DNA of 64,000 nt from Lysobacter niastensis (lineage in GTDB: Bacteria; Pseudomonadota; Gammaproteobacteria; Xanthomonadales; Xanthomonadaceae). Positions 36,516-63,035 of this stretch are shown here, piece after piece; position 1 is the first letter of the stretch; each line of letters opens with the position of its first letter. A program made the translations under genes and the position numbers. The stretch is from NCBI RefSeq assembly GCF_015453285.1, contig NZ_JADLZT010000010.1, forward strand, positions 1 to 64,000, read 5' to 3'. Under the pieces are notes generated by a model. The model did not search any database. It saw nothing but the letters and a program-made list of their open reading frames with translations, and was not told the origin of the DNA.

Positions 36516-37232
36516 ATGCTCCTGCGCACCACGTCCCTGCGCATCATGTTCCTGCACACCGGTGCCGCTTCCGTCGTCATGCTCGCGCTCGGCGGCTGCG
36601 CCGCGCTGGTCGGCGACGTGCGTCCCTACGAGCCGCTGGCGCCGATGCCGGCGCCTGTCGTGGTTGCGCCATCCGGCGGCGCCAGCGAAGGTTCGATCTA
36701 TCCCGGCAGCCGCGCCCTGCGCCTCTTCGAGGACAACAAGGCGCGCGAAGTCGGCGATCTCGTCACCATCGTGCTGGTCGAGAGCACCAACGCGCGCACC
36801 CAGGCCAATACGTCGGTCACCAAGGACAGCACCATCGACATGGCGGCTCCCACGATCGCCGGCGTGCCGATCACCTATAACGGCAACAACCTGCTGCAGG
36901 CTTCGGTCGAGGGCTCGCGCGATTTCGAAGGCGCGGGCAACAGCACGCAGAGCAACCGCCTCGACGGTTCGGTGACGGCCACGGTCGTGCAGAACCTCGG
37001 CAACGGCAACCTTCTGGTCCGCGGCGAGAAGCGCCTGCGCCTGAACCAGGGGGACGAACTGGTGCAGGTTCAAGGAATCGTCCGCGTCGCCGATATCGGT
37101 CCCGACAACCGCATAGCGTCCGACCGCGTCGGCGATGCGCGCATCGTCTATGGCGGGCGCGGCACGCTGGCCCGCTCCAACGCGATGGGCTGGCTGGGAC
37201 GCTTCTTCAATTCGGCTGTTTATCCCTACTGA
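36516..37232 (+). CDS. flgH: L-ring lipoprotein FlgH
   Basis: A 238-residue outer-membrane ring subunit with a lipobox (LGGC, Cys near residue 28) and conserved RALRLFEDNKAREVGDLVTIVLVESTNA, NLLVRGEKRLRLNQGDE and ARIVYGGRGTL stretches. The start could be the ATG at 36516 or a GTG at 36504 overlapping the flgG stop; both give acceptable signal peptides. It is followed nine bases later by flgI. Confidence 0.94.
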   Translation: MLLRTTSLRIMFLHTGAASVVMLALGGCAALVGDVRPYEPLAPMPAPVVVAPSGGASEGSIYPGSRALRLFEDNKAREVGDLVTIVLVESTNARTQANTSVTKDSTIDMAAPTIAGVPITYNGNNLLQASVEGSRDFEGAGNSTQSNRLDGSVTATVVQNLGNGNLLVRGEKRLRLNQGDELVQVQGIVRVADIGPDNRIASDRVGDARIVYGGRGTLARSNAMGWLGRFFNSAVYPY

Positions 37233-37241
37233 GGTGGCGTC

Positions 37242-38519
37242 GTGAAATCCCTGACCGATCTCGCACGCACCTGGCTCGCAACATCCCGGCGATCTGACAC
37301 CGTTCGTCCTGAGCGTAGCGCTCCAGCGCGGAGTCGAAGGGCGAGCGAACCTGCAGCGCATCCGGCCCGTCCATCCTTCGACTCCGGCACTGCGTGCCTA
37401 CGCTCAGGACGAACGGTATTTCTTTCCGCCGTCGGTGCGATGTTCGTTCTGTTCGCCACCGGTGCCATCACCCCCGCCCACGCCGAGCGCATCAAGGACC
37501 TCGCGCAGGTGGCCGGCGTGCGCGGAAATCCGCTGGTGGGCTACGGTCTCGTCGTCGGCCTCGACGGAAGCGGCGACCGCACCAGCCAGACGCCGTTCAC
37601 CGTGCAGAGCCTGAAGACGATGCTCGACCAGCTCGGCGTCAGCATTCCGCCGGGCGTGAACCCGCAGCTGAAGAACGTCGCCGCGGTCGCCATCCACGCC
37701 GAGCTTCCGCCTTATTCCAAGCCTGGCCAGAGCATCGACGTCACCGTGTCCTCGATCGGCAACGCTGGTTCGCTGCGCGGGGGCAGCCTGTTGATGGCGC
37801 CGCTGCGCGGTGCCGACGGCGAGGTGTACGCGATCGCCCAGGGCAACCTGGTCGTGTCGGGTTTCGGTGCCTCCGGCAAGGACGGTTCGCGCATCTCGGT
37901 CAATGTTCCCAACAGCGGCAGCATTCCCAACGGCGCCATCGTCGAGCGCGCCGTCGCCGGTGCAGCGCCCGCGGGCAACGTCACGCTGAACCTGCACGAG
38001 GCCGATTTCACCACGGCATCGCGCATCGTCTCGGCCATCGACGGCGCGTTCGGCAACGGCCGCGCGCATGCGGTCGACGCCGTCACCATCGAAGTGATGC
38101 CGCCGGCCGGCATGGATCGCGTCGGTTTCCTGGCACGGCTGGAATCGCTGGACGTCGCACCGGGCACGTCGGCAGCCAAGGTCATCGTTAACTCGCGCAC
38201 CGGCACGGTGGTGATGGGTGGCCAGGTCGACGTGCTGCCGGCGGCGGTTTCGCACGGCTCGCTGACCGTGTCGATCACCGAGAACGCGCAGGTCAGCCAG
38301 CCGGCGCCGTTCGGCGACGGCCGTTCCGTGGTGACGCAGCAGTCGAGCATCGAAGCCAGCCAGGATGGCGGCCGCATGTTCCTGTTCCAGGGCGGCACGT
38401 CGCTGGAGGCCATCGTGCGCGCGGTTAACGCGGTCGGCGCCGCGCCGGGCGACATCGTCGCGATCCTGGAAGCGCTCAAGCGCGCCGGTGCGCTGCGTGC
38501 GGAGCTCGAGGTGATCTAG
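37242..38519 (+). CDS. flgI: P-ring protein FlgI with a repeat element inserted in its signal-peptide region
   Basis: A 425-codon gene whose mature part (from Glu82 after AHA) is an ordinary ~344-residue Flg[22 protein letters not shown] and [22 protein letters not shown] are intact. The N-terminus is abnormal. Residues 1-19 ([19 protein letters not shown]) look like a normal n-region and residues 60-81 like a normal hydrophobic core and cleavage site, but residues 20-58 are encoded by a 119-bp palindromic repeat (37299-37417) read in frame without stops. GTG at 37242 has GAGGTGG upstream. The alternative ATG at 37440 would leave a 15-residue signal without basic residues. Export may be impaired or may tolerate the Arg-rich extension. 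Confidence 0.9.
37299..37417. repeat. Palindromic element, copy 1, inside flgI
   Basis: ACCGTTCGTCCTGAGCGTAG at the left is the exact reverse complement of the last 20 bases. Inside are gagtcgaaggg and its near-inverse atccttcgactccg, so the element can fold into a long cruciform. Same family as 51777-51893 and 62917-63035. Confidence 0.93.
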
Positions 38520-51776: not shown

Positions 51777-51893
51777 CACCGTTCGTCCTGAGCGTAGGCG
51801 CATGGCGCCGAAGTCGAAGGATGAAACGGGCGAAGGCCATCACCCGCTCGCCCTTCGACTCCGGCCCGCGGCCTACGCTCGGGACGAACGGTG
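51777..51893. repeat. Palindromic element, copy 2, between fleQ and fliE
   Basis: The left end CACCGTTCGTCCTGAGCGTAGG matches the family; the right end CCTACGCTCGGGACGAACGGTG is its inverse with one change. Internal gaagtcgaagg and cccttcgactccgg complete the pattern. The rest of 51639-52052 holds the fleQ terminator and the fliE promoter and no gene that I can support. Confidence 0.93.
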
Positions 51894-59044: not shown

Positions 59045-59190
59045 CCCTTCGACTCCGACGCTGCGCATCTACGCTCAGGGCGAACGGTGATGCTGTCTGC
59101 GATTCCCGCGCGCACTCTCCCACCGTTCGCCCTGAGCGTAGGGCCGGCAGGCCCGGAAGCCTGCCCTGAGCACCTCGAAGGGTCGAAGGG
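59045..59190. repeat. Two half-elements of the palindrome family between fliK and fliL
   Basis: A right half (cccttcgactccg ... ctacgctcagggcgaacggtg, 59045-59089) is followed 31 bases later by a left half (caccgttcgccctgagcgtagg ... gtcgaaggg, 59121-59190), the reverse of the normal order. Nothing else is seen in 58974-59235 except this and the fliL promoter. Confidence 0.8.
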
Positions 59191-62916: not shown

Positions 62917-63035
62917 CACCGTTCGTCCTGAGCGTAGGCGCACCGCGCCGGAGTCGAAGGATGAGCGGGTCGGACACGTTCTCCCGCCCGCCCTTCGACT
63001 CCGGGCCTGCAGCCCTACGCTCAGGACGAACGGTG
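62917..63035. repeat. Palindromic element, copy 3, between fliQ and fliR
   Basis: CACCGTTCGTCCTGAGCGTAGG at the left and its near-exact inverse ending CAGGACGAACGGTG at the right bound 119 bases. The interior has ggagtcgaaggatgag and cgcccttcgactccggg. Same family as 37299-37417 and 51777-51893. Confidence 0.93.

Follow-up and report, generated by a model that had tools for sequence, protein, structure and literature searches.

How is a flagellar gene to be read when a palindromic repeat separates its apparent start codon from the hydrophobic core of the signal peptide: is the repeat translated, or does the gene start downstream of it? We address this question for flgI in the window, i.e. the whole stretch of 64,000 nucleotides of Lysobacter niastensis DNA analysed here. 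N-terminal REP inserts are usually set aside as misannotated starts. The comparison of species argues that this one is translated.

Two kinds of in-frame palindromes are known from the literature. The accessible text of Di Nocera et al. 2013 (PMC3733652) describes GTAG/CGTC REPs as short palindromes that are mostly intergenic and often dimeric. Some of them lie in frame in genes, at the N-terminus more often than at the C-terminus, and most of the N-terminal ones are held to be possibly extragenic, through misannotated starts (PMC3733652). The term 'signal peptide' occurs zero times in this accessible text. Rickettsia palindromic elements (RPEs) are palindromes of about 150 bp lying in frame inside many unrelated genes, to which they add a peptide (accessible parts of PMC10969869 and PMC3733652).

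A palindromic element within the flgI reading frame

The features of the locus are given in Table 1. The flgI ORF (37242-38519, 425 aa from a GTG) has no stop codon anywhere, the element included. Its product matches the Pfam FlgI domain (PF02119) over residues 83-424 with an E-value of 2.4e-136. It also matches solved P-ring chains (best E 1.2e-111), one of which, 9iyc_A, aligns from query residue 82 with its own residue 1. From this domain and chain homology, the predicted product is FlgI, the flagellar P-ring protein. The AHA motif of the signal ends at residue 81. By eye, no Tat motif was seen beside the h-region.

The element has two 20-nt arms that are 100% complementary, with 79 nt between them and an inner pair of arms at 37329-37340/37375-37386. 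It encodes exactly 39 residues (residues 20-58, TVRPER...LRSGRT). This bears out the sequence-only reading of this DNA, which had placed a 119-bp palindrome (37299-37417) in frame in the n-region of the signal and had counted about 39 extra residues ahead of the hydrophobic core. The element also encodes Arg57, beyond which the signal peptide has no charged residue, and the hydrophobic run starts at the right edge of the element. Up to this Arg, the long basic n-region counts 57 residues, including 12 Lys/Arg and 5 Asp/Glu. The RNA of the element region folds strongly (-114 kcal/mol over 236 nt, z -6.46), and the hairpin is positioned 57 nt past the start codon. An identity as a known RNA family was rejected: the sole Rfam match, MIR8788, scored 30.9 bits, far under its gathering score of 124. 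A MITE would combine terminal inverted repeats with a target-site duplication; no duplication was seen by eye at 37296-37298 / 37418-37420. In the window, the 25 bp that separate flgI from the following gene carry no palindromic repeats of the GTAGC-C/G-CGGG type (see below).

Table 1. Features of the flgI locus and further family-A doublets in the window.
Feature	Position	Strand	Remarks
flgH (L-ring lipoprotein)	36516..37232	+	TGA stop overlaps the flgI Shine-Dalgarno
GAGG ribosome-binding site and putative flgI GTG start	37231..37244	+	GTG at 37242-37244
n-region, first 19 codons of flgI	37242..37298	+	
Family-A palindromic element (REP-like doublet)	37299..37417	+	residues 20-58, in frame; arms 37299-37318 / 37398-37417
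Hydrophobic core and AHA site	37413..37484	+	downstream of Arg57; overlaps the last 5 nt of the element
In-frame alternative ATG	37440..37442	+	rejected as main start; choice of the codon-usage gene caller
Predicted mature FlgI (P-ring protein)	37485..38519	+	Glu82 onward
Family-A doublet, intergenic	51778..51892		
Family-A doublet, intergenic	59045..59165		opposite arrangement; limits approximate
Family-A doublet, intergenic	62918..63034		

The element belongs to a multi-copy family

REPINs, or REP doublets, consist of two inverted REP units that form one long hairpin; they occur in tens of copies and are associated with RAYT transposases. The family of the window element (family A) is similar to them in being an inverted doublet that forms a hairpin and is present in tens of copies. 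Within the window, the arm has 8 matches at up to 3 mismatches, compared with 0.03 expected. In the 4.03-Mb genome (G000), the 18-mer arm has 65 matches with at most 2 mismatches, while a reversed control has 2. Once grouped, they form 38 intervals that are nearly all intergenic, three of them lone two-mismatch matches that are perhaps due to chance. A codon-usage gene caller places 37 of the 38 outside genes, the other one (C10:230455-230568) touching a gene. The flgI element is counted as outside because this caller starts flgI at 37440; on the comparative evidence given below, we count it as inside, which leaves 36 intergenic intervals.

Eighteen distinct two-armed copies in G000 have the arrangement seen in flgI, and 47 of their 108 strand-by-frame combinations are stop-free. 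Hence, a stop-free frame through the element is not rare in itself. The suggestion that frame-keeping insertion is uncommon finds no support here, given these open combinations and the other repeat families present in this n-region of flgI both in sister species and in other genera (see below).

The arm (at most 2 mismatches) is present in 10 of the 12 genomes of the genus, with, besides the matches of G000, 54 in G009, 53 in G008, 30 each in G007 and G011, and 28 in G001; four others have one or two each. The exact 18-mer was found in 5 of 119 family genomes sampled. Family A is a multi-copy short palindrome, chiefly intergenic and commonly arranged as inverted dimers, and its copy in flgI is a candidate intragenic REP. 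Members of the GTAG/CGTC superfamily bear one of these tetranucleotides at one end of the unit. The family-A arm ends in GTAG, which may be the end of its unit, and family B, described below, carries CGTCATCCC. The family differs from RAYT-mobilised REPINs: the Y1 transposase domain (Y1_Tnp, PF01797) has no match in G000 and none above the family cut-off in the 12 genomes of the genus, where G003 has one weak match. A resident RAYT was accordingly rejected as the mover of family A.

For further signal-peptide insertions, we also surveyed 67 clusters of families A and B from G001, G007, G008 and G002: 65 lie outside genes and 2 overlap gene 3' ends. This survey includes 23 listed of the 53 matches of G008 and 11 regions of the 86 family-B matches of G002, and leaves out one match of G007. 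It is no strong negative, since the same caller puts the flgI element outside its gene, and in several clusters the frame is open through the element, as judged by eye. According to the caller, family-A copies at loci L209 and L241 overlap gene 3' ends, where they possibly form C-terminal tails.

Start position and frame of flgI across the genus

We found flgI in 10 of the 12 genomes of the genus. It was not found in G001 and G010, though these genomes are rated 98-99% complete, and flagella may perhaps have been lost there. The other nine products share 86-89% identity with that of the window (352-358 residues matched). A candidate flgI start 8-9 nt past the flgH stop occurs in 10 out of 10 loci. 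These starts were picked by a script as the first with a Shine-Dalgarno past the flgH stop, ignoring frame, and all 10 are in frame and stop-free up to the mature protein. The pre-sequences take 8 distinct lengths: 81 residues in G000, and 72, 102, 102, 44, 59, 107, 37, 107 and 56 in the others. By our own arithmetic, which assumes a free frame and independent events, the chance of all being in frame is about 1 in 3^7 to 3^8.

Alignment of flgI with its relatives, from which the sequence-only reading expected proof of insertion, gave a mixed answer. Family A is indeed absent from the flgI n-region in all nine other genomes (0/9), but no clean empty site was found among the relatives, because the n-regions do not align. 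Several of these genes carry other repeats. G007, G002 and G003 have family B (CGTCATCCCGGCG ... CGCCGGGATGACGG) in the n-region; G008 and G009 have a half-element related to B and another palindrome; and G005 has an apparent decayed B copy, near-intact B being absent from its genome. The flgI genes of G004, G011 and G006 have no repeat, with pre-sequences of 37, 44 and 56 aa, respectively. Matches to family B range from 0 to 209 per genome of the genus (6 in G000). In a tree of flgH and mature flgI, G000 stands outside the other nine with a support of 97. Since the sequences of A and B differ, there have been at least two acquisitions at flgI. The CATCCCGGCG stretch immediately left of the G000 element may, by eye, be a remnant of B.

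As a control for position, flgH has a signal peptide and a tight junction too. It is not lengthened in the same 10 genomes: 62-89 nt lie between the flgG stop and its lipobox Cys, as against 120-330 nt to the mature start for flgI. Elsewhere, flgH is not immune, because the gap is 137-203 nt in seven of 40 other measurable loci (four values over 1600 among these 40 are failed measurements). At L052 (Lysobacter sp. GX 14042), the flgH signal MGSRVRGNDVIAVLCLL looks by eye like a family-B repeat giving the N-terminus. Palindromes of the GTAGC-C/G-CGGG type were seen by eye in the intergenic stretch 3' of flgI in 5 of the 10 genomes (G007, G008, G009, G005 and G004). Repeats therefore reach the operon often, and at the flgH-flgI junction they lie inside the ORF. 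The loci with these 3' palindromes are L002, L003, L004, L006 and L008.

Other repeat families in other genera

Among 395 genomes of the family searched, 239 have flgI; we examined 60 that belong to other genera, almost all of them taken from the head of the list. The n-region of flgI in G032 contains family C (TAGCCCGGGTAAG...) with the frame open, and the 26-mer of this family has 29 matches in that genome, one being the flgI copy. Family D occupies the n-region, also with an open frame, in G131, G389 and G360, whose genomes have 81, 73 and 71 matches; the flgI copy is among the matches listed for G389 and G360. Families C and D come from two other genera. Family E, in the flgI n-region of G251, G021 and G070, is tentative because it has only 9, 3 and 2 genome matches with at most 3 mismatches.

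Counting duplicate species between collections, 150 flgI loci were handled, of which 140 were measurable. At least 110 nt separate the flgH stop from the mature start in 62 of the 140 (the 10 genus loci included). In 59 of these 62, an in-frame start at most 34 nt past the flgH stop is followed by a stop-free frame, a result weaker than the genus test, as the script sought such a start. In the three exceptions (L074, L097 and L118), all outside the genus, the open frame does not reach back as far as flgH. When the start was chosen automatically, the reading was out of frame or interrupted at L046, L074, L095, L097, L103, L143 and L124. The flgI genes of G182, G167, G105 and G130 (loci L132, L137, L145 and L147), all from one other genus, have long extensions in which no REP is evident. 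They share a conserved FELDA-x-RD-x-EFGV motif, a hint that the extension is functional in these genes.

In-frame REPs are already known, as the accessible text of PMC3733652 describes; the new part is their recurrence in one signal peptide, of which a single, presumably cleaved segment has been entered by no fewer than four repeat families (A, B, C, D) across three or more genera. Like the GTAG/CGTC REPs of that text, the window element is short and palindromic, comes from a mainly intergenic family and is in frame at the N-terminus. It differs from them in that the coding reading is favoured for the window and in that several unrelated families occur in the signal peptide of one gene. The likeness to RPEs, as described in the accessible sources, is in behaviour only, and the flgI insert sits in a removable n-region. 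In the open-access literature searched, we found no earlier account of an extended n-region in the flgI signal peptide, and REP together with flgI matched only a Bradyrhizobium flagella paper.

Probable translation through the repeat and its alternatives

From the observed repeat, its copy number, its open frame, the kept start position and the other families at the same place, we infer the use of GTG 37242, cleavage and neutrality, and draw an argument from translational coupling. The repeat is probably translated as an added part of the n-region and cleaved off with the rest of the signal, leaving mature FlgI unchanged. A multi-copy REP-like palindromic doublet would have entered the 5' end of flgI, between the start codon and the hydrophobic core. 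Translation would begin at GTG 37242, coupled to the termination of flgH, and continue through the element, whose 39 residues would join a long basic n-region ahead of a normal h-region. After Sec export, signal peptidase would cut behind AHA81 and the repeat-encoded part would be discarded, so that the P-ring protein would stay as it is. The altered P-ring assembly envisaged in the sequence-only reading is not borne out, the cleavage site and the mature protein being conserved. Any lengthening of the short spacing from flgH to flgI would break coupled translation, and the inserts tolerated would be those in frame just downstream of the start. The site would thus take repeats recurrently because the n-region is little constrained and the flgH-flgI spacing is fixed by coupling. 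The simplest explanation is that such inserts are neutrally tolerated, and they may have a regulatory role.

The genus comparison favours this coding reading of the window insert, through the open frame, the kept start position and the orthologues without family A. Among 17 loci with long or repeat-bearing pre-sequences, stop codons are absent from frame 0 in all 17, from +1 in 3 and from +2 in 9; for the 7 non-genus loci among them the start was chosen in frame, and only openness is informative. The pre-sequences of G002 and G003 differ by two indels of 3 nt each. Pairs that align poorly have indels that are not all multiples of 3 (1 and 154 for G003/G006; 89, 3, 1 and 1 for G007/G009; 5, 4, 21 and 9 for G007/G005). 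Substitutions by codon position are 21, 13 and 30 for G002/G003 (28 nonsynonymous and 20 synonymous codons over 106), 4, 10 and 9 for G131/G389 (11 and 4 codons), and 7, 6 and 11 for G021/G251 (10 and 7 codons). Signs of selection on the extension are weak, with little purifying selection. These weak signs count against read-through, as do the indels of the poorly aligned pairs, the frequency of stop-free passage through the element, and the loci outside the genus with closed, interrupted or out-of-frame readings.

It might instead be that the repeat is non-coding and that flgI starts at ATG 37440 or, in sister species, at a start donated by the repeat. This would agree with the 37 of 38 family-A intervals outside genes, flgI being one of them and starting at 37440 for the caller, and with the opinion, in the accessible text of PMC3733652, that N-terminal REPs are often extragenic. 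In addition, the family-B insert supplies an in-frame ATG (GGGATGACG) in G007, G002, G003, G008 and G009, which would yield ordinary signals (23 aa with a Lys in G007). Read-through is for this reason less certain in these sisters than in the window, whose flgI has no donated ATG: the only in-frame ATG, GTG or TTG codons before its cleavage site are GTG 37242 and ATG 37440. We nonetheless consider a relocated start unlikely. Beginning at ATG 37440, as the sequence-only reading had pointed out, the signal would have 15 aa and no Lys or Arg, whereas the longest in-frame signal candidates of 72 unextended loci (duplicates included) have 19-38 aa, none of them 18 or fewer. The hydrophobic run also starts upstream of 37440, at the edge of the element, and the flgH-adjacent start is kept together with an open frame in all 10 genus genes found. 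ATG 37440 was rejected as the main start.

A repeat n-region or mRNA hairpin recruited to slow or tune the synthesis or targeting of FlgI, e.g. P-ring relative to L-ring supply, would be in line with the recurrence at flgI in at least three genera and not at flgH of the 10 genus genomes, with the strong hairpin 57 nt past the start and with the repeat-free extensions that share a motif in another genus. Yet repeat family, length and sequence all vary, G004, G011 and G006 do without any repeat, and the signs of selection are weak, which makes such a function improbable. That an assembler misplaced the repeat into flgI is hardly credible. The many copies of the element and an assembly of 15 contigs speak for it, but 119 bp is short for a misjoin, flgH and flgI flank the element as expected, the reading frame is unbroken, and other repeats stand at the same place in other assemblies.

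If translation through the repeat is the correct reading, the cut-off stretch of FlgI looks like a recurrent and safe landing place for repeats. A rule may be suggested, namely that extragenic palindromes turn coding in n-regions that are cleaved, under weak constraint and preceded by a fixed, coupled start. Several repeat families and a range of 37 to 107 residues within one genus make the flgI pre-sequences a natural experiment in how long and how odd a Sec n-region may become while the protein still serves a flagellar ring. A bolder version, which we regard as rather unlikely, is that the Lysobacteraceae FlgI n-region is a genuine repeat-capture site. REP families would be recruited to it repeatedly, since a palindrome in this frame would bring along a basic n-region or even a start codon of its own, and the mRNA hairpin that comes with it at a coupled start would tune P-ring supply. 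Were this true, signal peptides would be a general route for extragenic palindromes into protein coding.

A second family-A copy in a signal peptide

A further family-A copy of G000, at about 230454-230569 of C10 (locus L188, C10:229500-231500), falls within the signal-peptide region of a family S58 peptidase gene (PF03576). The ATG of this gene overlaps the upstream stop codon. The element (116 bp vs 119 in flgI) begins 57 nt past this ATG, as in flgI, with identical orientation and frame, and the hydrophobic core of the signal is directly 3' of it. The equal 57-nt offset in the two genes may be chance. The S58 gene was found in 3 of the 12 genomes of the genus, and the signals of the orthologues in G010 (MRRLLASITLAAACAAATA) and G001 are short and lack the repeat. 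It is the S58 peptidase, rather than flgI, that provides the clean comparison of a signal with and without the repeat.
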